A DNA stretch of 29,918 nucleotides. It comes from a virus. Location: the IMG/VR virus record IMGVR_UViG_3300032053_007431, positions 1 to 29,918 of that record. One strand, given 5' to 3'. Below, in pieces: positions 1-28,809 of this stretch. Within the stretch, counting starts at the first letter, position 1, and each line of letters begins with the position of its first letter. The notes beneath the pieces are model-generated. The model was not told where the DNA came from. It did not search any database and was given only the letters and a program-made list of their open reading frames with translations. A program made the translations under genes and the position numbers.

Positions 1-1432
1 CCAGCATAGCTCCGCTGCTGGCCAGTTCCGTGGCAGCTTTGTCTACAGCCTCCTTGGACTGCGCGAGCACGCGCTGGCGTTCCTTGAGGGTGGTCTGGGC
101 TTCCTTGAGCGCCGCGTCGCTGACGGCGGTCTTGGCGCTGTTCAGGGCCAGTTGCTTCTGGTGAATCTCGTTCTGCGCGGTGGAGATGGATTCCTCCAGT
201 TCCTCATCTTCACTGCGAAGGTTTTCCATTTCTTCCTCGACGCCCAGCGCGGCGGTGCGCTGGCGGTTCTGCTCCAGCAGGTCGCGCTGAGCTTGGATTT
301 TGCCTTGGTGAAGCTCGTAGGCTTTCTTCTTTTCGTCTACAACGGTCTTAGCCGATTCCAAAGCTTCCGCCAGCCCGGCCAGATGGGTCTCGTCGATTGG
401 CCCGGTCATGGGGCGGCGGCAGGTGGGGCAGACCTTGGCGCTGTTTTTGTAGTTGCTGTGCGCGGTCTCGGCCTGCGTGTGGGCCTTGATGGCGCTGTCC
501 CGTTCGGAAATCAGAGGCCGCAGTTTGACCTGAAGTGATTGTATACGGTCGTTGATGGCGTTGGCCTCAATCTCCAGCTTGTGATAGGCACCGGCCTTGG
601 CCTGAACGCTTTCCTCGACCAGCTTGGCGATGACCGTCCGGCGTTCCTGCATCTTCACGACCTCGGCATCCTTGGCGGCGATGGCAGTGGTGTGTTCCTT
701 GATTATCTTGTCGTTCTTGGCCTTTCGCTGCTTGTAGGCTTCGGCTTGCGTGTCTACTTCGCTCTGGGCATCCTCCACGTCCTGTTCAGCTTCCCGGACA
801 CGCCGGGCGGCCTCGGCGTGCGTGGCTTCATCCTTGGCAATGGCCTGTTTGAACTTGCCCAGCACCTTTTTGCTGGCTTCATGGTAATCGTTCCACGGCG
901 GCTGGCGCAGGGCGCTCATCACCAGTTCCACGCATTGGGCTTGGCTGAGCTTGTTGAACTTCAGGTTGTCGCCGTCTACAAACACCGTCCATCGGGCCAG
1001 CAGTTGGGGCACGCCCAGCAGCTTCAGTAAGTCCTCGCGGGTTTGTTCAACACGGCCTCGTGACTTGGGCTGGCCTTCGCCGTACGTGTACTGTAGTGCT
1101 TCACCGCTGGATTTCAGTTCTTTGCACTTGTAGCCCATCTCGACCTTGAGGGGTTTACCGAGGAAGTCGGCTTCGAGGCAGATGTAGGTGTCGCCGTTGG
1201 TGTCGAGGCTGTAGTCGCCCACGTGGTCAAAGTGGCTGGAGACGCCCAGCAGGGTGTGGCAGATGGCCTCACCAAAGCCGGTCTTGCCGGAGCCGACGGA
1301 TTGGAGCGCCCCGTTGGAGGCGAGGTTGTGGCCGGTGACCACGACCAGTCCGCGTTCCGGGAATTTAAGGTGTACATTTCGGAATTTCATCCAATTCCGT
1401 ATCTGGATGCTTTTGAGCTTCAGGTCTGCCAT
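1..1432 (-). CDS. SMC/Rad50/gp46-like recombination ATPase (N-terminal 477 residues, runs off window)
   Basis: Reading from ATG at 1432 toward base 1 stays open for 477 codons without a stop, so the C-terminus lies outside the window. The N-terminus has the SMC-family strand and P-loop: LVVVTGHN at 29-36 and GSGKT at 47-51. A long charged coiled coil begins near residue 185. A CPTC zinc hook lies at 335-338, and the returning coil follows. This is the architecture of Rad50, SbcC and T4 gp46, DNA-end-processing ATPases that pair with an Mre11/SbcD/gp47 nuclease. The Walker B and signature motifs would lie in the missing half. The P-loop is split by about ten residues (37-46). The gene diverges from the PDZ gene across 35 nt. 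No clear Shine-Dalgarno precedes the ATG. Family assignment is firm; the exact subfamily is inferred. Confidence 0.9.
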   Translation of the reverse strand, partial: MADLKLKSIQIRNWMKFRNVHLKFPERGLVVVTGHNLASNGALQSVGSGKTGFGEAICHTLLGVSSHFDHVGDYSLDTNGDTYICLEADFLGKPLKVEMGYKCKELKSSGEALQYTYGEGQPKSRGRVEQTREDLLKLLGVPQLLARWTVFVDGDNLKFNKLSQAQCVELVMSALRQPPWNDYHEASKKVLGKFKQAIAKDEATHAEAARRVREAEQDVEDAQSEVDTQAEAYKQRKAKNDKIIKEHTTAIAAKDAEVVKMQERRTVIAKLVEESVQAKAGAYHKLEIEANAINDRIQSLQVKLRPLISERDSAIKAHTQAETAHSNYKNSAKVCPTCRRPMTGPIDETHLAGLAEALESAKTVVDEKKKAYELHQGKIQAQRDLLEQNRQRTAALGVEEEMENLRSEDEELEESISTAQNEIHQKQLALNSAKTAVSDAALKEAQTTLKERQRVLAQSKEAVDKAATELASSGAML

Positions 1433-1457
1433 ACAGGCAAAGAACCTGATTAGTGAG

Positions 1458-1463
1458 TAGTTA
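1458..1463 (+). promoter_or_regulatory. TAGTTA start-proximal motif (PDZ gene)
   Basis: GTAGTTAAGGC stands directly before the GTG at 1468, with four nucleotides between TAGTTA and the start codon. It is one of nine such sites in the window. It supports GTG 1468 as the true start, since no Shine-Dalgarno is present. Its function (promoter or translation signal) is unknown. Confidence 0.5.
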
Positions 1464-2559: not shown

Positions 2560-3950
2560 CCCGCATCAGCCTTTGCGAGCGCCTGACGTTCGACAAGCTC
2601 TTTCGGATGAGCGAGCCGAAGCGCGTTCAGCGTTCGCTCACGGTCAAAGGTCCGCCGCTGGAAATCGACTCCTATCAGGATGTCGTCTACTACTGCTTCA
2701 ACTTTAAGGCCAATCCGTCTACAACGGGACTGCGCCACAAGGGCTACGTCAAATTTTACAAACCGGCCAATCCCAGAGCCAAGCCGCTTCAGCATTTGGA
2801 GTGCTTGGTGGACTGCACCTGCCCGGACTATCGCTACCGCTGGGCGTGGACCAACAAGCAGCGCGGTTCCGGTGTGGTGGGCGGCAATTCACTCAATCAA
2901 GCGTGGAACAGAGCGCCCCGTATCACCAATCCGTCGGGCCGTTCTGGTCTTTGTAAACACATCCTTGCAGCGCGAAGCTACATCTACGGCTTGCTCTCAT
3001 CTTTCCCCGGCGATGAACCCGATACGGCTGAGAAGCTGAACAAGCTCACGAAGTACGCGAAGAAACGCTGGACTGATTTTCCGGGCGCAATGGCCGCAGC
3101 CAAGGAGCGCGATAAAGAGATGGCCCGTATCCGGGCACTTCGCAATATCGCGGGGCGTCTGCCAGAACCGCCGCCGGAAAAGGAACCGGAAGAACCGTTG
3201 AGTGTAGACGCACGCACGGACGAACCGGAAGAACAGAAGCCAACCGATACTGCGGCTTTCAAAAAAGCCCAGCCACCAGCATTGCCGAAGAAGCCTGCCA
3301 AAGCCGCTCAAGCGCCGTTGGCAACGCCTCCCGGAAAGCGCGGACGTGGCTTTCCCGCAAAAGAACCAACGCCGAAGCCACATGGCGGCTACGGCAGCAA
3401 AGCCGAGTACGACTTCTATCGTCGTCAAGGTCTCGGCGACTCGCTGATGCGAGAATTGGAAAATCCCGTAATGGAGCGTGTAGTTAATTCAAACAACGGC
3501 AAAAGTATGAGCGACCTGAACCTGAAAGAAGCAATCAAACTCGTCCAAGAGATGGAGGACGACATTCTCGGCGGTGCCGGAGCCTCGCCGGAGATGCCGG
3601 GCGACATGGGGGCACCGGAAGCAGAACCTATCGAGCCGATGGAACCGCCCATCAGTGACACCGCCATTGGCGCGGACACCGAGGGCGAGACCGCACTTGG
3701 TTTGCTTGGGCAGATGAAAGAACTGCTCCAGCAGATTGCGATGGCCGTTGCTCCGCCCGAAGAAGGTATGCCGGGCGAGGAAGGCGAAATGCCGCCGGGT
3801 GCCGAAGGTGCCGAAGGCATGGGCGACATGCCGCCGGAGCCACCCACGGACGAGGAAATTCCTTCCGAGGAAGCCCCAGAGGGCCACGAGGAAGAAGATG
3901 AAAAGGAGCCGTTCGAGGAAGCCGCTCCCAATCGCCGTCCCAGCAAGTAA
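2556..3950 (+). CDS. SWIM zinc-finger protein with acidic C-terminal tail
   Basis: This 464-residue protein is translationally coupled to the PDZ gene through an ATGA overlap. Residues 87-89 (CTC) and 133-135 (CKH), followed by ILAAR, form the CxCx(n)CxH signature of SWIM domains, which bind zinc and mediate DNA or protein contacts. Here n is 43, longer than is usual for the family. Residues about 190-290 are Pro/Lys-rich. From about 340 to the end the chain is dominated by Glu, Pro, Gly and Met and is strongly acidic and probably disordered. Next to virion genes it may be a head or internal protein, but nothing proves that. It encodes no recognisable enzyme. Confidence 0.7.
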   Translation: MTRISLCERLTFDKLFRMSEPKRVQRSLTVKGPPLEIDSYQDVVYYCFNFKANPSTTGLRHKGYVKFYKPANPRAKPLQHLECLVDCTCPDYRYRWAWTNKQRGSGVVGGNSLNQAWNRAPRITNPSGRSGLCKHILAARSYIYGLLSSFPGDEPDTAEKLNKLTKYAKKRWTDFPGAMAAAKERDKEMARIRALRNIAGRLPEPPPEKEPEEPLSVDARTDEPEEQKPTDTAAFKKAQPPALPKKPAKAAQAPLATPPGKRGRGFPAKEPTPKPHGGYGSKAEYDFYRRQGLGDSLMRELENPVMERVVNSNNGKSMSDLNLKEAIKLVQEMEDDILGGAGASPEMPGDMGAPEAEPIEPMEPPISDTAIGADTEGETALGLLGQMKELLQQIAMAVAPPEEGMPGEEGEMPPGAEGAEGMGDMPPEPPTDEEIPSEEAPEGHEEEDEKEPFEEAAPNRRPSK

Positions 3951-4440: not shown

Positions 4441-5751
4441 TCAAGCCCCCGGAAGTTTTTGTGCATCCTCTACTGTCGCATAGACGGTAGAGGATTCTTG
4501 TTTTCCAGCACCCACGGTCAGGATGGAGTTCTGGGTCACTGACGGATTGATGTCCTGTCCCGGAGCCGTGGTTTCCGGTATGAGTTGAGAAGCGGTGTTG
4601 GGCTGGGTGATGGTGGTCCGGTCTTGGACGATTTCTCCGCGCCTGAGTGTATACAACGTTTCCAGCGTCTCCTTTTTAACGGTGCGACAGACACCAGCTA
4701 CGATGTAGTACCCAGACCACGGCGAAGTCTTTTCCTTCTGGGGTGAGAGCACGAAGCGCAGAATGTCGCCCACGCGGATATTCATGCTGCGCGTCAGGTC
4801 CGCTGAAATCTCGAAAGTTTTGGCTCGACCAAAACTGTATACATTCTGCGCCAGCGCCGACACTTCCTGCGGCTCGTTCTGGCTCAGGTGGTAGGTCATG
4901 GTCTGGACGCCATTGGGCACCTTGTCCATCCGGTAGATGCCGTCGGCCAAGCGCAGGTACTTTTCCGGGTCGCTGACCACTTCGTTGGTCTGGCCGGTGT
5001 AGGGGTCGTAGGCGATGCAGCGGGTGCCCGCGATGCCCACGTCAAAAAGCTGCTGGCTGCGGTCGTTCTGGACCATGCCCTTGAAGGGCGTGTCGAAGTA
5101 GGCGATTTCTTTGATTTCGGTCTGGTAGTCCGGGGTGTGGAAGTGGAGCACGTTGTCCCGCATGTAAAGCAGGTATTGACCGCGCCCCTTGTCGTTGAGG
5201 CAGCGGTGGACCAGTCGGCGGTTGATGAACTCAACATCGGACTCGTTGACCTGAATGTAGGCAAAGGTGCCGACGGTTGGCTCGACGACGGCTTCGACTC
5301 CAGCATCAGAGGCCATCTGCTTTACCATGTCGCTGATTTTGCCCTTGCGCGAAAGTATCTTGGTGCTCCGGTTGACGGTGAACAGCCGGTCGGCGGTGCT
5401 TATCTCGAAATTGTGCCCGGCATTGTTGCCCAGCCCCTTAATCATCGCGGAGCAGTGGACAATCTGGTGCTCCTGCCACGGGAGCCACATGCTCTTGCCT
5501 TCGGTCACAAAGCCGATGCGCCAGCGCACGAGCGGGGTGCCGTCGGCCATGAGCGATTTGATGGATTTGTCTACAATGTCCACCTGCTGGGTGACGAAGC
5601 GGTGGTAGCTAATCGGGATTTCCTCCATGTTCTCATTCAGGGTGCTTTCCATGTGCTGGATGAGACCGGTGTTCAGGGACAGGGGCTTGTCGGTCGTGCC
5701 TTTAAGCTCGATGTCGAAAAGAACCTTTCCGGTGGGTAGGAAATCAATCAT
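4441..5751 (-). CDS. Baseplate hub-like protein (gp27 / late control D type)
   Basis: This 436-residue protein looks like the tail hub that connects the tube to the spike in contractile tails. Support comes from the order of segments: beta-rich N-terminal half, a central helix-strand region (MVKQMASDAGVEAVVEP then a 'DVEFINRRL' helix and 'LYMRDNVLHFHTP' strands), and a further barrel ending near residue 375. This is the pattern of the gpD/gp27/VgrG hub family. The last 60 residues are low-complexity Thr/Gln/Pro. GAGGG five nucleotides before the ATG serves as Shine-Dalgarno. The small gene at 5753-6064 is upstream with a one-nucleotide gap, so the two are co-expressed. A different baseplate subunit remains possible. 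Confidence 0.6.
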   Translation of the reverse strand: MIDFLPTGKVLFDIELKGTTDKPLSLNTGLIQHMESTLNENMEEIPISYHRFVTQQVDIVDKSIKSLMADGTPLVRWRIGFVTEGKSMWLPWQEHQIVHCSAMIKGLGNNAGHNFEISTADRLFTVNRSTKILSRKGKISDMVKQMASDAGVEAVVEPTVGTFAYIQVNESDVEFINRRLVHRCLNDKGRGQYLLYMRDNVLHFHTPDYQTEIKEIAYFDTPFKGMVQNDRSQQLFDVGIAGTRCIAYDPYTGQTNEVVSDPEKYLRLADGIYRMDKVPNGVQTMTYHLSQNEPQEVSALAQNVYSFGRAKTFEISADLTRSMNIRVGDILRFVLSPQKEKTSPWSGYYIVAGVCRTVKKETLETLYTLRRGEIVQDRTTITQPNTASQLIPETTAPGQDINPSVTQNSILTVGAGKQESSTVYATVEDAQKLPGA

Positions 5752-6632: not shown

Positions 6633-7001
6633 TTGTATACAGTGAGCACGGCGACCACTGACATTTTTCCGACGATTCTGGAGGGCGTACACAACGTATT
6701 CCAGCAGCGGCTTGATGACCGCGAGCAGCGGAAGAAGGTCGCGGAAGCTTTGATGTCTTGGCTCGCTGATACGGCCCGCAAGAAAGACGTGCCGGACCTT
6801 GATGTGAAGCTGGCAGGTATGCAGCAGCGGGTGAATAAGCTGGTCGAGAACATGACCATCGAAATCGAAAAGGATAAGCCTGTAGTTAAGGCAGCCGGTA
6901 GTGATGAGGATACGTGGAAAATGTTCCGCCTCGGCACAAGCTGGTTTGAACCGAACCCGGATTTGATTGAAACGGTCCTGTCCGGGCTGTTTAACGAGTA
7001 G
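6633..7001 (+). CDS. Small helical unknown protein
   Basis: This 122-residue ORF can start at TTG 6633, abutting the previous TAA and preceded by AGAGG six nucleotides upstream, or at GTG 6642. The Shine-Dalgarno spacing favours TTG. The protein is mainly helical and charged (for example residues 24-55 and 62-85) and has no Cys and no recognisable domain. The start region contains TGTATACA (6634-6641), one of the dispersed 8-mers. Its TAG stop is the first half of the TAGTTA motif serving the next gene. A small structural or chaperone role is possible but unproven. Confidence 0.6.
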   Translation: MYTVSTATTDIFPTILEGVHNVFQQRLDDREQRKKVAEALMSWLADTARKKDVPDLDVKLAGMQQRVNKLVENMTIEIEKDKPVVKAAGSDEDTWKMFRLGTSWFEPNPDLIETVLSGLFNE

Positions 7002-7388: not shown

Positions 7389-9386
7389 ATGGCCGACGAA
7401 ACTCTGAACGCCAATGACGGAACCCTGAATGTTCGGGCAGGCTCGCTGGGCGGCACGTCGATGCGCTATCACGAGCTTGCGCTTCAGCGTTGGCTGAACC
7501 AACTATTCTACGTCCGTGAGGGTTACCCAGTCCCGGTGGTGTTTACGTCGCCGATGGACGCCTTCTCCTATTTCGCCCAGCTTTGGTCTGACTCCAACAA
7601 CCCTTTCGACTACCTGCTCAACCTCAAGGATGCCAACGGCACTCCGCTTTATGAGCCGCATCCTTCGCCGATTCGCTACCCGATAATTTCCGTTTATCGC
7701 AAGGGCTGGAAGTACCGGCAGTACCAGAACTTTTCGATTCATCGCTGGCGTCACATCAACTGGCCAACGGTCGCCAACGCTGGTACTGAGCGTTATGGCC
7801 CGGAGGCGCAGGGCTGGGATGTGACCAAGTGCCGCCTCGGCAACGTCACCACGTCGCGGATGCCGATGGCGTGGGACTACCGCTTTCAAGTAGACCATTT
7901 TTGCAACCGCCCGGACACGCAGGCATTCTTCATCGAGCAGTTGATGCAGGAGTTCTGGCGCACAGGCGGCACCGTTCCGCAGACGTGGGTCACGGTGCCC
8001 TACCCCGGCTGGGGCAATCGACGGGTGCGCCTTTACCTCGACGGCGACATTGAAAACTTGACCCCGGAGGAACCTGAGACGGGCAAGAACGTGGAGTTCC
8101 GCACGAGCTTCACCATCGTCGTCGAGGGCTTTGACGTTGACCTGAAGTACGAAATTTACCCGGCGCTTTGGAATCTGGTCATGCGCTTTGGCCCGGTGGC
8201 TCCCATCGAACTGGAGGACTGCTTCAACTTAACCAAGACCACGGACCTGCGGGTGACCGGCAGCAACACGACGCTGGACAGCAGGCCGAACGTGCCTTCG
8301 TGGGGCACTTGTCAGGAGGTTATCGAAGCGGCAGAGAGCGTGGCTTCCACACAGACGAACATTTACCTGACTTCGGCCAATGCTTCCTACACGGTCGAAA
8401 ACGGCCTGCCCATCGTCATCCCTCCGGTCAACACTTTTGGAGTGTTTACAATCGGTACGACGGTTCCGGTTTATCTCATCACCGGCCACGTCACAGAGAA
8501 TGGCACGGGCATGGATAATGTGCCGCTGACGATGACCGGAATCGGCACGACCTACACGGATGTCAACGGCAGCTACGGCATCAACGTGCTTGGACCTTTC
8601 AGCGGCGTGGCCCAGCCCGTCTGGTTTGGTGGCGCGTTCACTCCACCGTTCCGCACTTACACCGCGCTGGGCACCAATCAATCCGGGCAGGACTACGCCT
8701 TCACCGGCACAACGCCGCCGACCTATCTCATCTCCGGCGTGATGAGCAACAACTTGGTGCCATTCAGCACGGACATTGCCTTTGACAGCCTTGGAACGTT
8801 TACATCTGCTGCCGACGGCAGCTATGGCGTATTGGTGCCTTACCTGTACAGCGGCGTATCCACGCCACTCTCAACCGGGGGCGTTTGGACGCCTGATTCG
8901 CGCACCTACGTTCAGGTGGTCGCGGACACGCCCAATCAGAATTTCGACTTCGCGGGAGCCGCCGTCATGGCCTACGGCACCGATTACGCCAGTGCGAACG
9001 GTTCGTTCGTCTACGGGTCTGCCGACCTCTACGTTTACACGATGGCGGGCGCTTCCCACGTGGCTTTCCTAAGCGGCAGCGTGTTGGACGCGGCAGTGCC
9101 GGGCGGCACCTTCTACAGCTACGGGACCAATACCGTGTCGCTCTACAGTGGCACGCTGGCCGACACGATTGTTTACAGCTTCGGGACGGATTACGGCACG
9201 AACACCATCTCGCTTTACACGGGCACCCTGTTCGATACTTCGGTTAGCACCGGGACGACGATTGACGGCGGCACGAACTCGGTTTCCCTCGTGAATGGCA
9301 CGCTGGCCCTCCTGATGATTGAGTCGGGAACGCACTTTGCCCAGACAACCATCCAAGTCTCCTTCTTGAATGGAACACTAGCGTAG
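7389..9386 (+). CDS. Large adhesin-like virion protein with Ig/CarboxypepD-reg-like repeats
   Basis: This 665-residue protein has three parts. Residues 1-265 are a Trp/Tyr-rich domain I cannot name, presumably the virion-attachment part. Residues 361-440 and 445-523 are two tandem beta-sandwich repeats: both begin 'YLI(T/S)G', carry 'T...D..GSYG..V' and 'GG.(F/W)TP..RTY', and end in '(Y/F).F.G', like the carboxypeptidase-regulatory/transthyretin-like modules used in cell-surface and phage adhesins. Residues 580-665 hold four repeats about 25 residues apart with the core (V/I)S(L/F)xxGTL, suggesting a beta-helical or fibrous tip. A receptor-binding or tail-decorating role is inferred. The start is set by ATG 7389 and its TAGTTA motif. 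Confidence 0.72.
   Translation: MADETLNANDGTLNVRAGSLGGTSMRYHELALQRWLNQLFYVREGYPVPVVFTSPMDAFSYFAQLWSDSNNPFDYLLNLKDANGTPLYEPHPSPIRYPIISVYRKGWKYRQYQNFSIHRWRHINWPTVANAGTERYGPEAQGWDVTKCRLGNVTTSRMPMAWDYRFQVDHFCNRPDTQAFFIEQLMQEFWRTGGTVPQTWVTVPYPGWGNRRVRLYLDGDIENLTPEEPETGKNVEFRTSFTIVVEGFDVDLKYEIYPALWNLVMRFGPVAPIELEDCFNLTKTTDLRVTGSNTTLDSRPNVPSWGTCQEVIEAAESVASTQTNIYLTSANASYTVENGLPIVIPPVNTFGVFTIGTTVPVYLITGHVTENGTGMDNVPLTMTGIGTTYTDVNGSYGINVLGPFSGVAQPVWFGGAFTPPFRTYTALGTNQSGQDYAFTGTTPPTYLISGVMSNNLVPFSTDIAFDSLGTFTSAADGSYGVLVPYLYSGVSTPLSTGGVWTPDSRTYVQVVADTPNQNFDFAGAAVMAYGTDYASANGSFVYGSADLYVYTMAGASHVAFLSGSVLDAAVPGGTFYSYGTNTVSLYSGTLADTIVYSFGTDYGTNTISLYTGTLFDTSVSTGTTIDGGTNSVSLVNGTLALLMIESGTHFAQTTIQVSFLNGTLA
9132..9380 (+). 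repeat. Four coding repeats of about 75 nt at the 3' end of the adhesin-like gene
   Basis: Residues 582-590, 606-614, 631-639 and 656-664 share the pattern (V/I)S(L/F)xxGTL, spaced 24-25 residues apart. The fourth copy is the most diverged. The repeat ends at the C-terminus, as if the tip grows or shrinks by repeat number. Confidence 0.6.
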
Positions 9387-18238: not shown

Positions 18239-18267
18239 TTGACGACAGCGGAGGAATTGTCTACAGT
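18239..18267 (+). promoter_or_regulatory. sigma70-type promoter, apparently leaderless (gene at 18275)
   Basis: TTGACG (18239-18244), a 17-nt spacer and TACAGT (18262-18267) lie eight bases before ATG 18275. The 19-nt block at 18227-18245, CGTTTTTTCTGGTTGACGA, is identical to the one at 16838-16856. TGTCTACA (18258-18265) overlaps the -10. A longer open frame starts inside this promoter, but the promoter argues for ATG 18275. Confidence 0.75.
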
Positions 18268-18274
18268 AACTCCC

Positions 18275-19087: not shown

Positions 19088-20157
19088 CGGCCAACGATGG
19101 TCGTGCTGAGCAAGGCGGGGGTAGGGGCGGGAGGTTGCATCGGAGTCGGTGTAGCCACGCCAGTACCCCCGCCGCTTTGTACCCCGGTTACGATGTGGGT
19201 GTGGGCCGCGTACATCGTGAAGAAGTCCAGCAGGAAGGTGAAAAGCTGGGTGCCCAGCACGAACGGCTCGTTGCTGCCGGTGCCGAGGGCCAAGAGGGAG
19301 AAGTCCAGCGTCATTGGCCCGGTGGACGTGAAGTGGGTCAGCCCGGTAGAGGTCGTGGTCAGGTCCGTTGCAGTGACGAGCTTGAGCGCCGTGGCAGCGT
19401 CCAGCGTGATACTGGCCAAGGCGTCGATGGTGAAGTTTCCCACGCAGGAGAAGTCGATGTTGTTGGCCGCCGTGGCTGACATGTCCCTGCCGACATTGGT
19501 GGAGTGGTCGCTGGTCGTGTTCCACGTGTAGTCGAAGGACGTAGACAGGAAGCTGGTGCCAATCAAAAAGTTTACATCTTCGAGGATGTTCAAAGTACAC
19601 GTACTCAGGAGGTCGTCGATTTCCAGCATGTTGCCCAGCGCGGTGCTGAGCTTGATGGACCCGTCGAAGCTGACGGGTGTTGAGGAATCGTTCAGGAGCA
19701 GGCGGTAGCCGCCGCTGGTGGTCTCGATGACGCCGCCCGCGTTCATCTCGATGGCGTGGTTGTAGCGCGTCCACACCGTCCTGTCCGGGGCACCTACGCT
19801 GCCGTCCACCCCGGTCTTGTAGGAGTGGAGCTTGAGGCCGCCGACGCCCATGACGCCTTCCCGGTCGCTGAATGACTGCATTCCCCACTCCCAGATGGGC
19901 TTTTCTGGCTCTCCATCGAGAAACCGGACCCAAACCTTGTCGCCGACATCCGGGAGTTGGCTGAAGCCCCCGGAGCGGGCGCTGCCACCTGCGGGCATCC
20001 CGGCTGGGAGCGCCCACGGCAGGTCGTTGGTGGCCACGAACCCTGACCCGCCGCCGGTTGAGCCGTAAACGTGGGGAACCCGCACTTTGACGCGGCCAAG
20101 CTTTAGCGGGTCTTTGTTGTTCTCGACCAGCCCGCCGTATGTGTACACGAGGTTCAT
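19084..20157 (-). CDS. Baseplate spike / gp5-VgrG-like OB-fold protein
   Basis: This 357-residue protein has the OB-fold start of phage baseplate assembly V/gp5 proteins: 'YGGLVENNKDPLKLGRVKVRVP' at 7-28, a 'DLPWALPAGMPAGG' region, and 'LPDVGDKVWVRFLDGEPEKPIWEWGM' at 68-93. Residues about 130-300 alternate Thr, Ser, Asn and Asp with hydrophobics, as in the triple beta-helix of tail spikes. The C-terminal segment 'AAHTHIVTG' is followed by a Thr/Pro/Ala-rich tail. It would plug the tube and pierce the host envelope. No lysozyme domain is inserted, unlike T4 gp5. It converges on the gene at 18275. Confidence 0.88.
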   Translation of the reverse strand: MNLVYTYGGLVENNKDPLKLGRVKVRVPHVYGSTGGGSGFVATNDLPWALPAGMPAGGSARSGGFSQLPDVGDKVWVRFLDGEPEKPIWEWGMQSFSDREGVMGVGGLKLHSYKTGVDGSVGAPDRTVWTRYNHAIEMNAGGVIETTSGGYRLLLNDSSTPVSFDGSIKLSTALGNMLEIDDLLSTCTLNILEDVNFLIGTSFLSTSFDYTWNTTSDHSTNVGRDMSATAANNIDFSCVGNFTIDALASITLDAATALKLVTATDLTTTSTGLTHFTSTGPMTLDFSLLALGTGSNEPFVLGTQLFTFLLDFFTMYAAHTHIVTGVQSGGGTGVATPTPMQPPAPTPALLSTTIVGR

Positions 20158-21053: not shown

Positions 21054-22252
21054 ACATATCGCCTACCAGAGAAGCGTTGGGTGTCATGGCCACGCTTCGC
21101 CCGCCGTCGTCCCGGCCTTTGAAGCTGCTCTACAGTTTCAGTTCGGAAGTGTACACAAACAACGGTTACACGTTCCAGCTTGAGGACGGTGAACCGGCTA
21201 TCTGCCCCGGCGACGGAACCGTGACCAGCGCGACAAAGCGGTTTGCCAAGTTCAAGTGCTCTCGCGGTGTGCTCACGGGAACGCCTTCCTACGAGGTCAC
21301 GATTACGCATAATCACGGCATCCAGACGGTCGTGGCCGGACTGGCAACACTGGCCATCCGCCCCGGCAATGCCATTGCACGCGGCGACATCCTCGGTCAG
21401 CCGTACACGAATGAAATTTTCTTTGCGGTGCGCTACAACCGGGAGACATTCAGCCCCCACGAGCTTGGCCGTCACTGGCAGCTTCAAGGCGAATACGTCT
21501 TGGGTCAGGCAGGCAATCTACGAGGCGGCCCGGACAAGCTGATTCGCAATTTTGCCGGGAGCATCTTTTCCACCATCTACGGCGGGATTCGTTACTTCAT
21601 TGACCGGGTGCGCGGGTTCAAGCCCATGCTCGTCAGCGTGGATTTCAACGGCAACGGGACCAAGACAGGCTTCGCCGGGCTGGGCTTCACCGATGCGGAT
21701 TACTGGAACGTCTACGCTGCTGGCGCATTCAACTGGCTCAACAACGTCAACGGCTGCTACGGCTACTACTATTATTACTACGCCTACGGCATTTGCGGTC
21801 AGACCAAGGTTTTCAACAAGAATCCTCAGACCTTCCTGAAGGATTCCACGAACACAAAGTCTCCGGTCTGGTTGGAGCGCGTGGCCGCAGCTACGGCGGC
21901 TTCGGGAACGTATACAGTCTGGGACGCAATGGCCTCCACGTGGATTGGCGGCTGGTCCGGCGGCGTGATACCGGAAGAAAACTTCTTTGCCCTGCGCGGG
22001 CTGCCCGCAGGCACTTACCGGCTGGCCTGCTATGCCAGCAATTACGGTCGGCCCATCGTCTTTAACACCGCGTTTTACGTCGCGGTCAACAATGGCGTGC
22101 CTGCCGTCAAGACGACGGCTGTTACTGCCGTTCCGGCTTTTCTGGAGAACTACAATTATGTGCTTTTTGACGTGACCGTGCTCGCTGGAGGCATTGTCAC
22201 GGTGAAGGGTTACGGTTACTTCGATGGCCTTCAAATCGAGCGCCTGTCCTAA
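21050..22252 (+). CDS. Virion protein with degenerate M23-peptidase-like domain
   Basis: ATG 21050 overlaps the tube-like stop and is preferred over upstream starts. The 400-residue protein has an M23/lysostaphin-like fold pattern at about 45-135: 'ICPGDGTVTSA', then 'YEVTITHNHGIQTVVAGLATLAIRPGNAIARGDILGQPY'. In active M23 enzymes a HxxxD and a HxH bind zinc. Here the first His is missing and the HxH strand reads FFAVRY, so it is probably not a working peptidase. A Tyr run (239-244, flanked by Cys236 and Cys249) follows, and the C-terminal half (310-400) looks like a carbohydrate-binding beta-sandwich. A structural, possibly wall-contacting, tail protein is inferred. It is followed by the glycan cluster. 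Confidence 0.68.
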   Translation: MNISPTREALGVMATLRPPSSRPLKLLYSFSSEVYTNNGYTFQLEDGEPAICPGDGTVTSATKRFAKFKCSRGVLTGTPSYEVTITHNHGIQTVVAGLATLAIRPGNAIARGDILGQPYTNEIFFAVRYNRETFSPHELGRHWQLQGEYVLGQAGNLRGGPDKLIRNFAGSIFSTIYGGIRYFIDRVRGFKPMLVSVDFNGNGTKTGFAGLGFTDADYWNVYAAGAFNWLNNVNGCYGYYYYYYAYGICGQTKVFNKNPQTFLKDSTNTKSPVWLERVAAATAASGTYTVWDAMASTWIGGWSGGVIPEENFFALRGLPAGTYRLACYASNYGRPIVFNTAFYVAVNNGVPAVKTTAVTAVPAFLENYNYVLFDVTVLAGGIVTVKGYGYFDGLQIERLS

Positions 22253-22769: not shown

Positions 22770-24729
22770 TCCAAAAGGGCTGTCGGTGTACACGCCGCTT
22801 CGCAGGCCGTTCCGGTTCCGTGCGCCTTTTAACGGCTACACTGGCTACGGTCTGCACGGGTCGTACATCGCCCGGTCTTTTTTCAACTTTGGCTACGATG
22901 TTCAAGCGTTGCCGCTCAGCATCGACGATAGCTGCTTTGAGGACGTGAAGGACTTGGTGAAGGACCAGCCTAGCGATGGTGACGTTCTGCTGCTGGCTCC
23001 GCCGTCTACAAAGGTCGGAGGTTCGACGTGGTTTTATACGATGCACGAAACCACTCAGATGCCCCCGGAGATGCTGGACAATGTGCGGCAGGCGCAAGCG
23101 GTCATCGTGCCCAGCCGGTGGTGTCAGCAGTGCTTTGATGCTCAGGGTGTCGATGTTCCGATTTCAGTGGTGCCGGTCGGAATCAACTTGGATTTATTTC
23201 GTCCACCCAAGCGCAGGCCCGGCATCTGCACTTTTGGTTCGGCTGGCAATCTCCTGCTGAGCGGGCCAAACCGCAAGAACATGGACCTGCTGGTGACCGC
23301 CTTCGTGGAAGCCTTCCGCACGGAAAAGGATGTGCGGCTGTCTTTGAAGATTCGCCCGGAGTGCCCGCTGCCCGAACTGAACGATTCCCGGATACTGGTA
23401 ATCCGCCAGCATTTTACCGAACTGGAACTTGCGGACTGGTACAGGTCGTTGGCGGTCTACGTCAGCCCCAGCCGGTGTGAGGCGTTTGGCCAGATGAATT
23501 TGCAGGCAATGGCCTGCGGCGTTCCGGTGGTCTGCTGTGATTTTGCCGGTGTGACCGATTACCACGACGAGCAGCACGGCTATAATATCGACTACCGCAT
23601 GGTGCCCCCGCAGGGGGACGGTTATTACAAGACGGGCTTGTGGGCTGAGCCAGACATGGACTCTCTGGTGGAGCAGCTTCGCCGTGTATACGAAAACCGC
23701 CGAGAAGCAGACCGCAAGGGACTGGAAGCTCAGCACGTGGCTTCGGCCTACGCTTGGAACTCGGTGAACTTGAGGCTGGAGAGCACTTTGAAGCGGGGTG
23801 GTTTTTGGAATCCTGAATATCGTCCGCCAAGGCCGGTGCGACCTGTGGCCCGTGAGCCTGCATCTCCGGTTCTTAACTCTGTGCTCAAAACTGAAGCGAA
23901 GCTCAAGAGCCTGTGGGGCAACGAAACGAAGATGTCGCTGCCTGTGACGACGCCTAAAGTGCCGTTGTGGCTGGCCCGGCGGTCGGGGGGCCGGGAACCG
24001 TCTTTTTACATGAGCGGCGATTTGGGTGACATCCTCTACGCCCTGCCAACGATACGGGGTCTTGGTGGCGGCCAGCTTTGCATTGGTCCGGCCCGTGACC
24101 ATCCCTATTACTGGCTGCGCGAGCCGATGACGGTAGCGCGTTACAACGTCCTGCAACCCTTGCTGGCGCTTCAGGACAGCTATTTGTCGAAGGTGGTTTG
24201 GTCGGATGAGATGGCAGGCTGGAAATGCCACGTGGACCTGAACGATTCTCGGCGGCTTCACCGGGAGCCTTACTACGTCGTCGAGCGCAACTTGTCCGAC
24301 GTGGCTTCCTGTTTCTTTGGCCTTGGTCCGGGGCTGTGGCGGCAGAAGTGGCTGGTTGTAAACAAAGTGACGGCGTTGGCCCGGTTTATCTTCGCCCGGT
24401 CTCTCCGGTATCACACCGATTATTTTCCGTGGAAGCAGCTTGTGGAGAAGCACAGGGCGCACGCTATTTTTGTTGGCCTGCCTGACGAGTACGACCAGTT
24501 TGTGGCTGAGTGCGGCCACGTGCCCTACATTCCGACTGCCAATTTACTGACGATGGCGCAGATGCTCGCCGGGGCTGAGTGGCTGGTCTGCAACCAGAGC
24601 GCCCCGCTCGCGGTGGCTGAGGGTTTGAAGATGAATGTGCTGCTGGAGCGGTTCGGTCCCGCCGCCAACTGTGATTACGAGCGCGAGGGCCATACCACCA
24701 ATCCGGCTCGCGTTTTGGACCTATGCTAA
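22753..24729 (+). CDS. Two-domain glycosyltransferase: GT4-type plus GT9/heptosyltransferase-like
   Basis: This 658-residue protein is a fusion. Residues about 20-345 have the GT-B fold of family 4: 'VIVPSRWC' (117-124), 'VVPVGINLDLFRP' (139-151), a donor-domain strand with 'RKNMDLLVTAF' and 'SRCEAFGQMNLQAMACGVPVV' at 240-260. The E-x7-E motif reads E243...Q251, so the second Glu is replaced. Residues 415-658 look like a GT9 (heptosyltransferase-type) domain, with 'SGDLGDILYALPTIR' (421-435) and a late 'WLVCNQSAPLAVAEGLKMNVLL' segment. It probably transfers two sugars or a sugar and a core unit. It overlaps both neighbours (17 and 7 nt). Confidence 0.8.
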   Translation: MPPKLSPKGLSVYTPLRRPFRFRAPFNGYTGYGLHGSYIARSFFNFGYDVQALPLSIDDSCFEDVKDLVKDQPSDGDVLLLAPPSTKVGGSTWFYTMHETTQMPPEMLDNVRQAQAVIVPSRWCQQCFDAQGVDVPISVVPVGINLDLFRPPKRRPGICTFGSAGNLLLSGPNRKNMDLLVTAFVEAFRTEKDVRLSLKIRPECPLPELNDSRILVIRQHFTELELADWYRSLAVYVSPSRCEAFGQMNLQAMACGVPVVCCDFAGVTDYHDEQHGYNIDYRMVPPQGDGYYKTGLWAEPDMDSLVEQLRRVYENRREADRKGLEAQHVASAYAWNSVNLRLESTLKRGGFWNPEYRPPRPVRPVAREPASPVLNSVLKTEAKLKSLWGNETKMSLPVTTPKVPLWLARRSGGREPSFYMSGDLGDILYALPTIRGLGGGQLCIGPARDHPYYWLREPMTVARYNVLQPLLALQDSYLSKVVWSDEMAGWKCHVDLNDSRRLHREPYYVVERNLSDVASCFFGLGPGLWRQKWLVVNKVTALARFIFARSLRYHTDYFPWKQLVEKHRAHAIFVGLPDEYDQFVAECGHVPYIPTANLLTMAQMLAGAEWLVCNQSAPLAVAEGLKMNVLLERFGPAANCDYEREGHTTNPARVLDLC

Positions 24730-25412
24730 ATCTCTCTAATGTCACGCTCTTGGCGATTGACGTGGCTGACCCCGGCAAGACGTTGGAGGCGCTGCTTTAC
24801 ACCATGCGCTACGTTGGGTTCGGCGACGTGGTGCTGGCGACTGACTTGGACCGCTGGCAAACGATTCCTGACCGATACCCGATTCGTCTACACCCGATTA
24901 AGCAATCCGATGACAAGATTCAAGGCTCCATCCGGTCGTTCTTCAAGGACTACGAACGGCAGCAAGTCACGCTCCCGGCGGAAATCATCAAAACAGATTT
25001 CGTACTCTGTCAGGAGTGGGACTCTGCCGTGGTCAACCCTCTGGCATGGGACAACTCGTGGTTCAACGTGGATTACATCGGCGCGGTCTGGCCGCCTTAT
25101 TACGACCCCGGCTGGCCGCCGACCACACAGGGCTATAACGTCGGCAACGGCGGGTTCTCGCTTCGTTCAAAGCGGTTCTGCGAATTGATACGCAAGGCGG
25201 CGCTGGACTGGCCGGATGACCCCGGCTTGATGTCCTACGATTGCTGGATGTGTCGGACGATGCGCCCGTGGCTGGAGACCAACGGAATGCGCTTTGCGAG
25301 CGAAGAACAGGCGCTTCGGTTCGCCTGTGAGGATGCGCTGTACACAGGTCAGTTCGGCTTTCACGGCAAGGCGACCATGAAGATGAACGGTTGGACCTTG
25401 CATTGGTTTTGA
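24723..25412 (+). CDS. DUF5672-like predicted glycosyltransferase
   Basis: This 229-residue protein resembles the DUF5672 group, thought to be glycosyltransferases. Key segments are 'TDFVLCQEWDSAVVNP' at 91-106, with E98/D100 as a possible metal site, 'YIGAVWPPYYD' at 118-128, and 'GNGGFSLRSK' at 141-150, a highly characteristic substrate-loop motif. The last 60 residues contain several Trp/Phe and 'CEDAL', fitting the family tail. It starts seven nucleotides inside the preceding gene and is three nucleotides from the next. Confidence 0.72.
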   Translation: MLNLSNVTLLAIDVADPGKTLEALLYTMRYVGFGDVVLATDLDRWQTIPDRYPIRLHPIKQSDDKIQGSIRSFFKDYERQQVTLPAEIIKTDFVLCQEWDSAVVNPLAWDNSWFNVDYIGAVWPPYYDPGWPPTTQGYNVGNGGFSLRSKRFCELIRKAALDWPDDPGLMSYDCWMCRTMRPWLETNGMRFASEEQALRFACEDALYTGQFGFHGKATMKMNGWTLHWF

Positions 25413-25415: not shown

Positions 25416-27476
25416 ATGGAAACAGATACATGTCGAGAGCGGCTGGCCCCTTATTGCAAGGGGGCGGGTGTAGACATTGGCTTCGGTGGCTGTGCCATAG
25501 TGCCGTCGGCTATGTGCCTCGACCGCGAGGAATTGAACCCCAGTCGGGCCAAGAACCCGCACGCCTCGCCTACCCATCTGGTGGGAGAGGCGGAGTATCT
25601 GCGCTGGTTCAAAGACGGCGTGTTGGACTATGTTTACTCGTCTCACTGCTTGGAGGACTTCTACGACACCAAGACCGTGCTGGCGGAGTGGCTGCGCGTC
25701 ATCAAACCGGGCGGGTATCTGGTGCTGTTCCTGCCTGATGAGCAGGTCTACCGCAGCGTCACCCCGGAGGAAATCAGGAACAAGGCTCACCAGCACGCGG
25801 ACTTCAGCGTGGAGTACGTGAAGGGCATTTTGCGCGAATTGGGCTACAACGAAGCCTGCATCGTCCACGAACTCTGGCCGGTGCCCAATAACCTTTACTC
25901 TTTCGATTTGGTGGTCCAGAAGCCCGTGCTTCAGGTGGCCGCCGAAGCTGCGCTGTGGTCTGATGTGGCAGAGGCTCCGCCGCCCCCGCCGCGTAAGCGC
26001 AACGCAGCGAGCTTTGAAAACAAGAGGATTATCCAGATGGGCCGCTACGGGGACATCATCAACATTCTGCCCATCGCTAAGGACATCGCGGCCAAGATTG
26101 GCAGACCGGTGCCCATCATCTGCAAGAGCGACTATGCCGACATTCTGGATGGCGTGAGCTACGCGGTCGCGGAGCCTGCGGGCGGTGGAGAGTTGCCCAC
26201 GGATTCAGGTGTCCTCGATACCCACGCCGCGCATCCTTTAAGTGAGCGCCGCGTCCCCTACAACCTTCAAGCGTGGGAGCAGGTTGGCTACGCTGACCGT
26301 TTCCACGAGCTTCTGCCGGTGTTCGACCGGCGGTGTCGAATCCGCGAAGTGGCCTTGGTGGAAAGCCTTGTCACCTTCGAGAAGCCGGTCATGGTGGTGG
26401 CCCTCCACGGGCTATCCTCGGCGATGGCAGAGAACACGCGCAGCATCCTCAAGAAGCTGATTCACGAAAGCTTTAACCTTCAGTTTCAAATCGTTGAACT
26501 GACGACCAAAGCCCATCGGCCTTATGACCTCTTGGGCTTGCTCGACGTGGCGGCGGTGGTCTTGACCATCGACACCATGCTGCTACATCTGGCGACGGCT
26601 TCCAACGTGCCGGTCGTGGCCTTCTTGTCCAATCATCCTCCGGTGTTCTGGCGGGCCAGCGCCGTCAAAGGCAACGTTGTCTACAGTACACCTTATGACA
26701 AGGTTGTAGACAATTGGCCGCTGGTGGTCCGGGCCGTGGAGGCGCACAAGCGCCAGCCATTGATACCGAACAATCCGGTCTACCATGTGGTGCCGACCGT
26801 GGAGCCGAAAAACGAGGGCGCGGCCCGGCGCTATAAAGCTGCCAAAGATTCATGGCAGACGTTCCACGAGCAGGGCGCGGTGTTTCTGTCTTACAACGAC
26901 CAGAACGCGCTGCGAGTGTTTACAATGGGCGAACGGAAGTTGCCCTACCTGAAGGACGCCTTCAAAATGGCCTTGGAAGCTTCCAGCGGGAACAACGACA
27001 TCATCTGCTTCACCAACGCGGACATCATCCTGACACCGGGTTTTTATCACGCCCTGCAAAATCGGATGGGCGTGAACGACTTTTGCTGCTCGTTCCGCAT
27101 GGAGTTTGAAGCGACGGATACGGCCAAATGTGGTTATCGAACCCACGGGCGCGACATGTTCGCTTTCAAACGCCTGTGGCTGGCCCAGCATTTCGACGAG
27201 ATTCCAGATTTCCTCATCGGCATGGGCGGGTGGGACTATGCGCTGTCCATGTGGTTTCGGGTGCTCTCAGGCCGGTCGCCAGAAAGTTGCGACCCCTCCC
27301 AGTGTATGCCAGACATCGAGATGGAATACGGCTTTGTTTGGCACGAACGCCACGAGGCCGCGTGGTACACAGAGACAGAGACGGCTTATGCCGAAGCAGC
27401 AAATCACAATCGAGCTTGTCTCCGGGCGTTCTTTGAACGTATCGGTCTGGAGCAGGCGCATAAGGACATCAAATGA
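25416..27476 (+). CDS. Three-domain methyltransferase-glycosyltransferase fusion
   Basis: This 686-residue protein reads as three joined modules. Residues 1-170 are a class I SAM methyltransferase: 'GVDIGFGGCAIVPSAMCLDRE' (18-38), 'LDYVYSSHCLEDF' (70-82) and 'VIKPGGYLVLFLPD' (95-108). Residues about 204-445 look GT9-like: 'QMGRYGDIINILPIAKDI' (207-224) and 'LTIDTMLLHLATASNVPVVAFLS' (383-405). Residues about 480-686 carry 'NNDIICFTNADIILTPGFYHAL' (526-547), a GT-A-like core with a putative nucleotide-sugar site. A Pro-rich linker (188-193) separates the first two. Such fusions in O-antigen loci build and cap a glycan. It overlaps the next gene (ATGA). Confidence 0.78.
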   Translation: METDTCRERLAPYCKGAGVDIGFGGCAIVPSAMCLDREELNPSRAKNPHASPTHLVGEAEYLRWFKDGVLDYVYSSHCLEDFYDTKTVLAEWLRVIKPGGYLVLFLPDEQVYRSVTPEEIRNKAHQHADFSVEYVKGILRELGYNEACIVHELWPVPNNLYSFDLVVQKPVLQVAAEAALWSDVAEAPPPPPRKRNAASFENKRIIQMGRYGDIINILPIAKDIAAKIGRPVPIICKSDYADILDGVSYAVAEPAGGGELPTDSGVLDTHAAHPLSERRVPYNLQAWEQVGYADRFHELLPVFDRRCRIREVALVESLVTFEKPVMVVALHGLSSAMAENTRSILKKLIHESFNLQFQIVELTTKAHRPYDLLGLLDVAAVVLTIDTMLLHLATASNVPVVAFLSNHPPVFWRASAVKGNVVYSTPYDKVVDNWPLVVRAVEAHKRQPLIPNNPVYHVVPTVEPKNEGAARRYKAAKDSWQTFHEQGAVFLSYNDQNALRVFTMGERKLPYLKDAFKMALEASSGNNDIICFTNADIILTPGFYHALQNRMGVNDFCCSFRMEFEATDTAKCGYRTHGRDMFAFKRLWLAQHFDEIPDFLIGMGGWDYALSMWFRVLSGRSPESCDPSQCMPDIEMEYGFVWHERHEAAWYTETETAYAEAANHNRACLRAFFERIGLEQAHKDIK

Positions 27477-28015
27477 GCGAAAATAAATGTGAACTTCATA
27501 CCTTGCTTGACCGCTTCTCGGAGTTAATCCAGCCGGTCAGCTACTTGGAAGTGGGCGTGCGCGAGGGCGACTCTCTAAAGCGCGTGCTCAAACACACCTG
27601 TCCAATCAAGCTCTATCTTTGCGACGATTGGGGCCGGGCTGCCGGGGGCACCGGGAGGGGCAGCCATGACCATATTCAGGCTATGCTGGACGACCAAGCT
27701 TTGAACGTGAACCCGGTCTACATCGACGGGGACTCGCACGTGCTGCTCAAGGAGATTCGCACAACGTTCCAGATGATTACCGTGGACGGTGACCACTCCG
27801 AGCAGGGAGCGAAGCAAGACCTGCTTGATTGCTGGGAATTGCTGGAGCCTAACGGCTTTCTGTTTTTCGACGACATCTGCCATCCGCAGCACATGTATCT
27901 TGATGACGTACAAAAGCGATTTCTACACGACACGCCCAACGCCCGGTGCGTCCTGCGCCACACCTACGGCATGGGGTTTCCGGGTTGCGTCGTGCTCCAG
28001 AAAATCATCGTGTGA
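27473..28015 (+). CDS. Class I SAM-dependent methyltransferase
   Basis: This 180-residue methyltransferase has 'SYLEVGVREGDSLKRVL' (23-39), the SAM-binding strand and glycine turn (EVGV-REG); 'LYLCDDWG' (47-54), the acidic residue for the ribose; 'MITVDGDHSEQGAKQDL' (101-117), and 'LLEPNGFLFFDDI' (123-135), a late core strand with an FDD pair. This ordering fits the small Methyltransf_24-type family. AAGGA lies upstream and the start overlaps the previous stop by four nucleotides. It likely modifies a sugar or another product of the cluster. Confidence 0.82.
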   Translation: MSENKCELHTLLDRFSELIQPVSYLEVGVREGDSLKRVLKHTCPIKLYLCDDWGRAAGGTGRGSHDHIQAMLDDQALNVNPVYIDGDSHVLLKEIRTTFQMITVDGDHSEQGAKQDLLDCWELLEPNGFLFFDDICHPQHMYLDDVQKRFLHDTPNARCVLRHTYGMGFPGCVVLQKIIV

Positions 28016-28809
28016 AAACCTTGTTCTGCTGCGGCACGGCCACCCAGACCACCCAAGGCCAGTCCGGGCTGTGGCGCTGGTGGTTTTACTACCGTCCGCT
28101 CAAGGAGCAGTTCGGCGCGACACATTACGCTGTAAACAATGACGGCAATGTGAACTTGCCCAACGAAGCTTTCATCAAGCACCACGACGGCGAGAAGCCT
28201 ATCGACCTGTTGAGCGAGGACCAGTTGAACGTCATTCATTGGCCAAACTCACTTCCGCGCAAGAGCCAGTATGCCTGCCCCGGTTATTACCGGAGTGTCA
28301 GCACCCTTGCAGAAGTGGCTATCCGGCAGGGCTTCGACAAGCTCATCTACATCGAGTGGGACTTCTGGGTGCTGGGCGCGGAAATGATGCGTGAAATTGC
28401 CCAAGTCACCCACGGCCTGATTGCCTACTGGGTGCCTTTTTACGTGTTCCCGGAGTGCAACATCATCGTCTGCGGCAAGGACCAGTTTAAGGTATTAAAA
28501 GTGTTCGCTGACCGGCTGGGAGCCAAGGAGGACATGACGGCGGAGACGATTGCGGAGGTCACTTTCCCGTGGACTGAAATCAGGAAGCATCGAATCGGTG
28601 ACCGCTACCCGGAGCACACGGACCAACTGCCGCTGGATGCGGAATACTGCGCTCAGTTGCCAAACACGCAGGTTGTCTACAAACGTAACTTGGTTCGGCT
28701 GGCGTGGGAGCTATGCCCGCAGTGCGGCGGGAAGATAGAGTTCAACGTCAAAGGAGTCCTGTCCTGCCGGGTCTGCCGCCCGGAGCAGTTCAGTTTGCCA
28801 CTGGAATGA
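28012..28809 (+). CDS. GT-A-like predicted glycosyltransferase with C-terminal zinc ribbon
   Basis: The GTG at 28012 overlaps the previous TGA (GTGA), which favours it over an upstream ATG that lies inside the methyltransferase gene. The 265-residue product starts with a beta strand (MKTLFCCGTAT) and has 'FDKLIYIEWDFWVLG' at 108-122, where E115/D117 stand where the DxD of GT-A enzymes lies. It ends in a zinc ribbon: CPQC at 235-238 and CRVC at 252-255. The closest description is a glycosyltransferase-like protein, but not a named family. It closes the six-gene run. Confidence 0.62.
   Translation: MKTLFCCGTATQTTQGQSGLWRWWFYYRPLKEQFGATHYAVNNDGNVNLPNEAFIKHHDGEKPIDLLSEDQLNVIHWPNSLPRKSQYACPGYYRSVSTLAEVAIRQGFDKLIYIEWDFWVLGAEMMREIAQVTHGLIAYWVPFYVFPECNIIVCGKDQFKVLKVFADRLGAKEDMTAETIAEVTFPWTEIRKHRIGDRYPEHTDQLPLDAEYCAQLPNTQVVYKRNLVRLAWELCPQCGGKIEFNVKGVLSCRVCRPEQFSLPLE

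Follow-up and report, generated by a model that had tools for sequence, protein, structure and literature searches.

The viral DNA record IMGVR_UViG_3300032053_007431 of IMG/VR, analysed here as a whole (29,918 bases; hereafter the window), carries a nearly palindromic eight-base word, TGTNTACA, at 25 distinct places, and the behaviour of this word in the window and in related contigs indicates that it is very probably a selected site of the kind bound by proteins. The word is enriched and selected at the DNA level, is conserved over short evolutionary ranges and turned over across long ones, is present and drifting throughout a phage clade, and at a subset of its places overlaps promoter-like sequences. 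As a tentative reading, to which we give somewhat less than an even chance, we propose that it is the core of an operator recognized by a regulator, fused with promoters at a minority of sites and otherwise dispersed in the manner of the stoperators of mycobacteriophages. The window is probably a fragment of the genome of a T4-like giant phage, and the remainder of that genome was therefore judged through a sister contig and through relatives.

Over-representation of the word in the window

The 25 places correspond to 28 strand matches, as the three TGTATACA copies match on both strands. Dinucleotide shuffles of the window give an expectation of 1.50 strand matches, with a maximum of 6 among 100 shuffles, and synonymous-codon shuffles give a mean of 2.4 places and a maximum of 7 (200 shuffles). 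The first-pass annotation of this DNA had claimed 24 copies where two to three would be expected, and this over-representation is borne out by both the count and the background: neither the codon-preserving shuffles nor Markov models of order 1-4, which predict 1.2-3.2 places, approach the observed number. Among the 16,384 patterns of the form abcNdefg in the window, TGTNTACA ranks first, with a z score of 12.1 (strand counts 28 versus 3.2) compared with 5.5 for the runner-up. Amino-acid or codon usage was rejected as the cause: the genes of the window hold 20 sites, whereas their protein sequences and codon usage predict 1.8. Near variants of the word are also enriched, such as CGTNTACA (18 strand matches versus 6.4), so that the full motif is nearer YGTNTACR. 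The sister contig, which is 99.6% identical to the window over 25.6 kb, has 31 places in 33.9 kb.

Presence and drift of the word among related phages

The window contains a contractile-tail module with a tail sheath gene (10677-12983), a Phage_base_V protein, and glycosyltransferase and methyltransferase genes, and its relatives (designated by G numbers) were gathered through searches with the tail sheath and with the capsid protein. In tblastn searches with the latter, the matches in cultured phages were annotated as major capsid proteins, many of them from Synechococcus and Escherichia phages, and a Gp23 match is present in the scanned protein set of G012. A megablast search of window bases 1-25000 against the phage collection returned no match. 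Twenty contigs, including the window, were worked on whole; G023-G026, G031, G032 and G007, G010, G013 and G014 were only counted, and many short capsid loci were left uncounted.

In 18 of the 20 contigs, TGTNTACA occurs 3.1 to 11.9 times as often as in codon shuffles, a figure that does not amount to 18 independent lineages because the set includes near-duplicates (G000/G001, G002/G012, G016/G017 and G027/G030). Ranked among all patterns in 14 contigs, it stands first in eight, second in two, fourth in one and fifth in one, and does not stand out in G021 or G028. Outgroup ranks, taken from six pieces (LIS04, SP-15, S-IOM18 and parts of G008, G009 and G011), lie between 811 and 16,153 with z of at most 1.7, the last three pieces showing a slight, non-significant excess (4-6 strand matches versus 1.8-3.8). 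The form of the word varies within the group, between TGTNTACA, YGTNTACR at large (enriched in G003, G012, G016 and G029) and CGTTTACR, which takes its place in G021. There, TGTNTACA is present at only 1.1-fold, and the drifted words CGTTTACG and CGTTTACA occur 96 times versus 13 and 56 times versus 8, respectively, with 198 YGTTTACR places in 203 kb; most counts for this contig past the initial enrichment test accordingly use YGTTTACR in place of TGTNTACA.

Such clade-wide presence with drift would also suit a signal derived from differing hosts, the phages mirroring either a regulator of the host or a word abundant in its DNA (as with HIP1 in cyanobacteria). The only match in a genome bin, which is perhaps a misbinned phage contig, has 161 strand matches in 2.2 Mb versus 80 for reversed controls, far below the phage density; we regard this explanation as quite improbable.

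Selection on the site itself

Conservation of the site between close relatives exceeds what protein sequence and ancestry explain. Between the window and G002 (75.6% identity), 12 of the 14 alignable sites (of 25) are kept, compared with 23% of composition-like control 8-mers, and from G005 to G006 six of ten are kept, compared with 11% of controls; from G000 to G003, one of three alignable sites is kept. When only places with identical amino acids are considered, all seven sites are kept between the window and G002 (1.9 expected) and all five between G005 and G006 (1.35 expected). At window positions 15461, 21150 and 9170 the centre base is altered in G002 with the site kept, and at G005:45843 the strand is flipped in G006, again with the site kept.

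The sister contig, G001, differs from the window almost solely by a replaced stretch, 28215-28696 within the gene 28012-28809, which holds about 100 differences, with one other substitution across the shared stretch. The site at 28674 is present in both alleles (TGTCTACA in the window, TGTACACA on the other strand in G001) despite a codon change from Tyr to His. Codon choice follows the word as well in most of the six contigs tested: where Val falls within T-GTN-xAC-A, its codon in the window is GTA in 8 of 8 cases versus 12 of 56 elsewhere, G029 in 36 of 53 versus 103 of 347 and G018 in 11 of 13 versus 58 of 257, the effect being weaker in G016 (5 of 13 versus 28 of 203) and G003 (4 of 5 versus 36 of 129).

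Between distant contigs the positions are mostly lost, with one of ten sites kept from G000 to G003 and none of 11 from G003 to G012 in codon-aligned comparisons. As the density of the word stays, the sites turn over.

Overlap with promoter-like sequences

Going beyond the first-pass annotation, a subset of the sites coincides with the -10 region of promoter-like sequences of the form TTGACR-N12/13-TGTNTACAnT-N6/7-ATG, and it is likely from the sequence pattern that the word overlaps the -10 element of genuine promoters at these places, which make up a minority of sites. Two such sequences lie in the window, both on the plus strand and with the upstream stretch CGTTTTTTCTGGTTGACGA in common. 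The first (16850..16878) comprises TTGACG at 16850-16855, a 13-base spacer and the -10 region TGTCTACAgT, with the site at 16869-16876 separated by 8 bases from the start codon of a gene for a 246-residue protein (16885..17625, plus strand; function not assigned, no PHROGs match). The second (18239..18267) has TTGACG at 18239-18244, the same spacer length and -10 region, and the site at 18258-18265, 9 bases before the start codon of a gene for a 270-residue protein (18275..19087, plus strand; function not assigned), for which the longer open reading frame 18239-19087 also has no PHROGs match. As the start codon lies 8-9 bases past the site, the messages would start with the ATG or close to it and would be leaderless.

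Promoters of this type recur across the group. A search for TTGAC, a spacer and TAnnnT near called starts yielded 42 leaderless-type promoters in 13 contigs, of which 29 carry YGTNTACR at the -10 position although only TAnnnT was required; the same search in LIS04 and S-IOM18 yielded none. A census of TTGAC-N11-14-YGTNTACRnT found 55 in 15 contigs (two of them common to G000 and G001), compared with a mean of 3.2 for five scrambled -35 words. Called gene starts peak 8 bases past the site (13 among 828 oriented sites in 13 contigs, versus mostly 0-3 elsewhere), and a smaller peak of six called starts lies 30 bases past the site.

A -35 test was applied to the genic sites of eleven contigs and to the intergenic sites of the ten that have enough of them. 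At intergenic sites, a TTGACA-like word precedes the TAC by 15-19 bases in 26% of 42 oriented cases in G029, versus 2% of controls (P 1.8e-5), in 33% of 12 in G018 versus none (P 0.002), and in 33% of 15 in G022 versus 3% (P 0.09, marginal); overall the intergenic signal is significant in 2 of 10 contigs, the window having too few intergenic sites. At genic sites the excess is significant in none of the eleven contigs (lowest P 0.083, in G029). Sites in genes are thus unlikely to be promoters of the form given above, and the view that all sites are promoters is disfavoured for the genic copies.

The same evidence bears on the possibility that the core is no more than the -10 element read by a phage sigma factor or modified polymerase, its genic copies being internal or antisense promoters. 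This would account for the promoter-like subset in many contigs, and two places in G029 match Sigma70_r4 above the curated cut-off, with a weaker match in a G006 protein that carries two helix-turn-helix (HTH) domains; this Pfam family also catches other HTH proteins. However, the genic sites have neither a significant -35 excess nor a clear orientation bias, and the core is nearly symmetric and can flip strand, as a polymerase element should not. A further argument, the lack of the final T of the -10 element, is weaker than it appears and holds for TGTATACA sites only: the T two bases past the core is found at 52% of 102 intergenic flanks versus 31% of 124 genic flanks (five contigs). As the difference is confined to TGTATACA, the final T is of little help in separating types of site. 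We consider the plain promoter explanation rather unlikely.

Layout of the sites

The first-pass annotation had also described the copies as dispersed over both strands and inside genes, and here too it holds: spacing is near random, orientation is free, and 21 of the 25 sites in the window fall within called genes, with 4 between genes. Over 19 contigs, spacing is close to Poisson (coefficient of variation 0.7-1.3), which speaks against a clustered or periodic arrangement except for the close pairs (<100 bp) in excess in G027 (4 versus 0.4 expected) and G030 (2 versus 0.2). The number of sites per contig ranges from 8 to about 200.

Density and orientation were assessed in 14 contigs, with near-duplicates, fragments and G028 excluded. 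Divergent gaps are the densest, with 1.51 sites per kb; codirectional gaps have 0.98, convergent gaps 0.65, gaps >600 bp 0.43 (a class of 60 sites that probably includes missed genes) and genes 0.33-0.36. Although the gaps are denser, 510 of the 719 sites fall within called genes, and the within-gene share varies from 177 of 198 in G021 to 10 of 25 in G022 and 6 of 28 in G027.

Near-random spacing, free orientation and long-range turnover with density kept are features that would also fit a genome-maintenance or DNA-organizing mark acting in segregation, condensation or recombination (similar to parS, matS, KOPS or Chi) and encoded by either host or phage, the overlap with promoters being a side effect; an HU-like protein in some relatives and a tubulin-like protein in 3 of 12 contigs point the same way. 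The fusion with the promoter -10 region and the excess in divergent gaps argue against it, and no ParB or SMC was found among the families listed, which cover 64+36 of 118 proteins in G012, 114 of 246 in G006 and 139 of 249 in G029, the last family list comprising 25 of 87 families. We judge such a mark unlikely.

A proposed regulator and its operators

In the operator reading, a regulator that binds DNA sequence-specifically, most likely an HTH protein encoded by the phage, would recognize TGTNTACA (YGTNTACR across the group) as its core operator. Where the core is fused with the -10 region, the regulator would compete with RNA polymerase. At the remaining copies (23 in the window, and as many as about 200 sites in one relative), which have no recognizable promoter, lie mostly within genes in most contigs and take either orientation, the protein, once bound, would stop elongation or suppress spurious transcription, as stoperators do. 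A regulator that needs the core alone, with operators atop some -10 elements and many copies elsewhere, would be the simplest account. The components of this proposal differ in strength: binding of both kinds of site by a regulator encoded by the phage has about an even chance, and a role of the genic sites in hindering elongation is possible but doubtful. Bolder still, and somewhat unlikely as a whole, is the proposition that one regulator commands an orientation-independent operator network across the genomes of uncultured T4-like giant phages without detected integrase, through a near-palindrome that doubles as a leaderless -10 element and occurs about once per 1-7 kb, largely in genes; such a network would switch or silence the whole genome, the word drifting together with its regulator and host restriction narrowing the centre to the single base that escapes cutting.

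A number of observations weigh against the operator reading. In G028 (64 kb), TGTNTACA is absent where 2.5 would be expected, which makes this contig a possible contrast for finding the binder. The -35 signal is not significant at the intergenic sites of G003, G006, G012, G016, G020, G021 and G027; G005, G021, G027 and G030 have no promoter of the TTGAC-N11-14-YGTNTACRnT form; raw ATG counts 7-10 bases past the site (offsets +8 to +11) are no higher than those 20 bases further on (54 versus 58), so that the peak is confined to called starts; and at sites with an asymmetric centre the final T of the -10 element does not differ between intergenic and genic places. The Val-codon test shows no effect in G012 (13 of 27 versus 71 of 145). 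There is no clear orientation bias in the 14 contigs, either in genes (239 same versus 202 antisense) or in codirectional gaps (42 versus 31), the majority of sites in G006, G022 and G027 are intergenic, and all placements depend on home-made gene calls.

The search for the regulator itself adds to these points. Hidden Markov model searches with four HTH families found each in some contigs only and no binder common to all site-bearing contigs; this patchiness speaks against a single conserved binder, and the candidates differ between lineages, many of the contigs being fragments. In 12 contigs no integrase was found, so that lysogenic repression is not indicated. Finally, no YGTNTACR site lies upstream of one candidate, a double-HTH protein with a Gly-Arg-rich linker, in G006, one of the three contigs that encode it.

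Candidate binding proteins

This double-HTH protein is found in G029, G021 and G006, which are the three worked-on contigs >200 kb, and its gene is preceded by a YGTNTACR site in two of the three (G029 and G021). AlphaFold2 models it with a mean predicted local distance difference test score of 65 and a predicted template modelling score of 0.36, the first HTH being modelled best. A second candidate is a 148-residue protein of G027 whose HTH_3 and Cro/C1-type matches are weak (E 7e-4 and 9e-4, short of the curated cut-offs) and whose gene is preceded by TGTTTACA at -38 and TGTAAACA at -25, a pair 13 bp apart; as the gene is identical in G030 and L087, it counts as one independent case. A second HTH_3 match in G027, at 131158, apparently lies in a gene that starts 30 bp behind the site at 131096. 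The only IMG/VR relatives of the candidates are copies 100% identical to the query.

In G027 it was also seen by eye that a near-palindrome, GTCATAGAC/GTCTATGAC, set in A/T tracts (for example at about 10988, 41636, 105122 and 120777), often adjoins TGTAAACA; it is possibly a second operator.

Restriction avoidance acting on the same site

The window contains no GATC (116 expected) and no CCWGG, and among the six-base palindromes with an expectation of at least 5, 28 of 36 are absent, with a total of 82 versus 382. In two controls, the corresponding numbers of absent palindromes are 0 of 42 (LIS04) and 11 of 51 (S-IOM18). As an observation in its own right, so extreme an avoidance of restriction sites suggests that the restriction repertoire of the host is very large. 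In contrast to a restriction or methylation motif, which would be avoided or as frequent as expected, TGTNTACA is strongly enriched. G004, G005 and G006 lack, or nearly lack, GTAC and every GTMKAC word, and in these contigs the site occurs only as TGTTTACA (8, 19 and 51 places, respectively). These relatives have TGTTTACA alone because the other centre bases fall under restriction avoidance, and the site survives with the only centre base to escape that avoidance.

The avoidance is extreme enough, and accounts well enough for which centre bases survive, to raise the idea that the enrichment is a by-product of restriction avoidance or mutation bias, TGTNTACA being left over once its neighbours were removed. 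However, the count is about 10 times the expectation and depends specifically on the outer T..A, the neighbouring words (for example CGTNTACA) are enriched rather than depleted, and promoter fusion and conservation would be left unexplained. The codon shuffles, Markov models, pattern ranking and neighbour counts largely refute the by-product idea, which we regard as extremely improbable. If a regulator does bind it, the site would offer a natural experiment, in which two opposing pressures, regulator binding and restriction avoidance, act on the same word.

Comparison with known systems

Like HIP1, Chi, DUS and parS-type words, which are short, over-represented, scattered and often inside genes, the present word is short, over-represented, scattered and often genic. 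Those words are not known to be fused with promoters or to drift in this way inside a phage clade. The operators of lambda CI and Cro provide another parallel, with a symmetric operator over a promoter and, in G027, a pair of sites followed by an HTH gene of the Cro/C1 type. Lambda has few, clustered operators, in contrast to the 8 to about 200 near-randomly spaced sites per contig seen here.

The resemblance that bears on the operator reading is to the stoperators of cluster A mycobacteriophages (L5, Bxb1), which share tens of short dispersed sites, some in promoters by sequence, and a drifting word. According to one report, stoperator systems comprise 20-30 sites, some being promoter operators and most not associated with promoters, which block elongation, and the word differs between related phages (PMC6550527). 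A second describes a repressor monomer with two DNA-binding domains that read a site whose middle varies most, and L5 sites that are 13 bp long, asymmetric, strongly oriented with transcription and located in promoters or short intergenic spaces (PMC9283540). Measured against these descriptions, the present site is an 8-bp near-palindrome, free in orientation and mostly genic in the window and in most contigs, and it occurs in T4-like phages whose contigs reach 238 kb, with no detected integrase and HTH candidates only as repressor. As orientation, asymmetry and mostly intergenic placement are lacking, the site is proposed to work like stoperators and is not claimed to be one. The first-pass annotation, which had described a nearly palindromic, dimer-binding type of site and offered stoperators as one precedent without choosing among those it gave, is upheld in part: near symmetry, DNA-level selection, dispersal and drift are seen, and the orientation and intergenic placement of the L5 type are not. 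As for the primase or packaging sites that it named besides, nothing found points to either role, and no test aimed at them was made.

Dispersed operators are documented for temperate cluster A mycobacteriophages (PMC6550527; PMC9283540). If the operator reading is true, the T4-like phages, whose contigs reach 238 kb, would show that genome-wide transcription control evolved elsewhere and in a different form, and their network of sites would provide a readable promoter and operator code, with named candidate regulators, for an uncultured phage group. Literature searches joining TGTTTACA or TGTATACA/GTATAC with phage showed no such sites in the titles or abstract openings of the papers listed, which does not prove their absence from print.

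Individual sites in the window

All sites listed here are matches to TGTNTACA placed by our own gene calls, and a site is termed kept when it is present at the aligned place in the named relative. In the left part of the window, TGTCTACA at 40..47 (plus strand), in the minus-strand gene 2-1432, is lost in G002, and TGTTTACA at 2952..2959 (minus), in the gene 2556-3950, is kept in G002, G003 and G006, as are the amino acids Cys-Lys-His. The minus-strand gene 4441-5751 holds three sites kept in G002, namely the perfect palindrome TGTATACA at 4648..4655, a further TGTATACA at 4836..4843 (neither assigned to a strand) and TGTCTACA at 5568..5575 (plus). The third TGTATACA, at 6634..6641 (likewise without strand), lies at the 5' edge of the called gene 6633-7001 and is kept in G002. 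In the gene 7389-9386, TGTTTACA occurs on the plus strand at 8443..8450 (kept in G002) and at 9170..9177, where G002 has TGTATACA, and TGTTTACA at 10156..10163 (minus), in the gene 9395-10612, is kept in G002.

The intergenic TGTCTACA at 10615..10622 (minus) lies 54 bp upstream of the tail sheath gene and is kept in G002. At the matching place upstream of their sheath genes, G004 and G005 have TGTTTACA, as does G006 only if its gene starts at an earlier ATG than the one called. Further on, two TGTCTACA sites, at 14180..14187 (minus) in the gene 14013-14546 and at 15395..15402 (plus) in the minus-strand gene 14958-15797, are kept in G002. The latter gene also contains TGTTTACA at 15461..15468 (minus), which is TGTATACA in G002, the centre being altered and the site kept. 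Beyond the two promoter-like sequences, TGTGTACA at 20140..20147 (plus), at the 5' end of the minus-strand gene 19084-20157, is replaced in G002 by TGTATACG, so that the strict site is lost, and TGTGTACA at 21150..21157 (minus), in the gene 21086-22252, is TGTATACA in G002, again with an altered centre and the site kept.

In the right part of the window, TGTTTACA lies at 24357..24364 (minus) in the gene 22786-24729 and TGTGTACA at 25339..25346 (minus) in the gene 24723-25412, followed by an intergenic TGTCTACA at 25469..25476 (minus). The gene 25512-27476 holds TGTCTACA at 26678..26685 (plus) and 26705..26712 (minus) and TGTTTACA at 26917..26924 (plus). The gene 28012-28809 holds TGTTTACA at 28131..28138 (minus) and, inside the replaced allele, TGTCTACA at 28674..28681 (plus), the place occupied by TGTACACA in the sister contig.

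Other observations

A different word, AGTTAAGG, occurs in the window at 1459, 6884, 7380 and 17745, close before a start codon in three of the four copies, and recurs in G012; it is possibly a ribosome-binding or start element of the phage group. In open-frame tests, the long gaps in G012 and G016 gave no sign of stemming from an altered genetic code. Arrays of transfer RNA (tRNA) genes are present in G012, with 23 in one 20-kb piece (L037), and in G003, with 13 in one piece (L027), and a tRNA with the anticodon CTA is predicted in G012 (L035:4837-4912). The tubulin-like proteins mentioned above are those of G012, G029 and G021, the first of which also encodes a Ro60/TROVE protein, and G029 has a predicted transfer-messenger RNA gene (L101:235-652).

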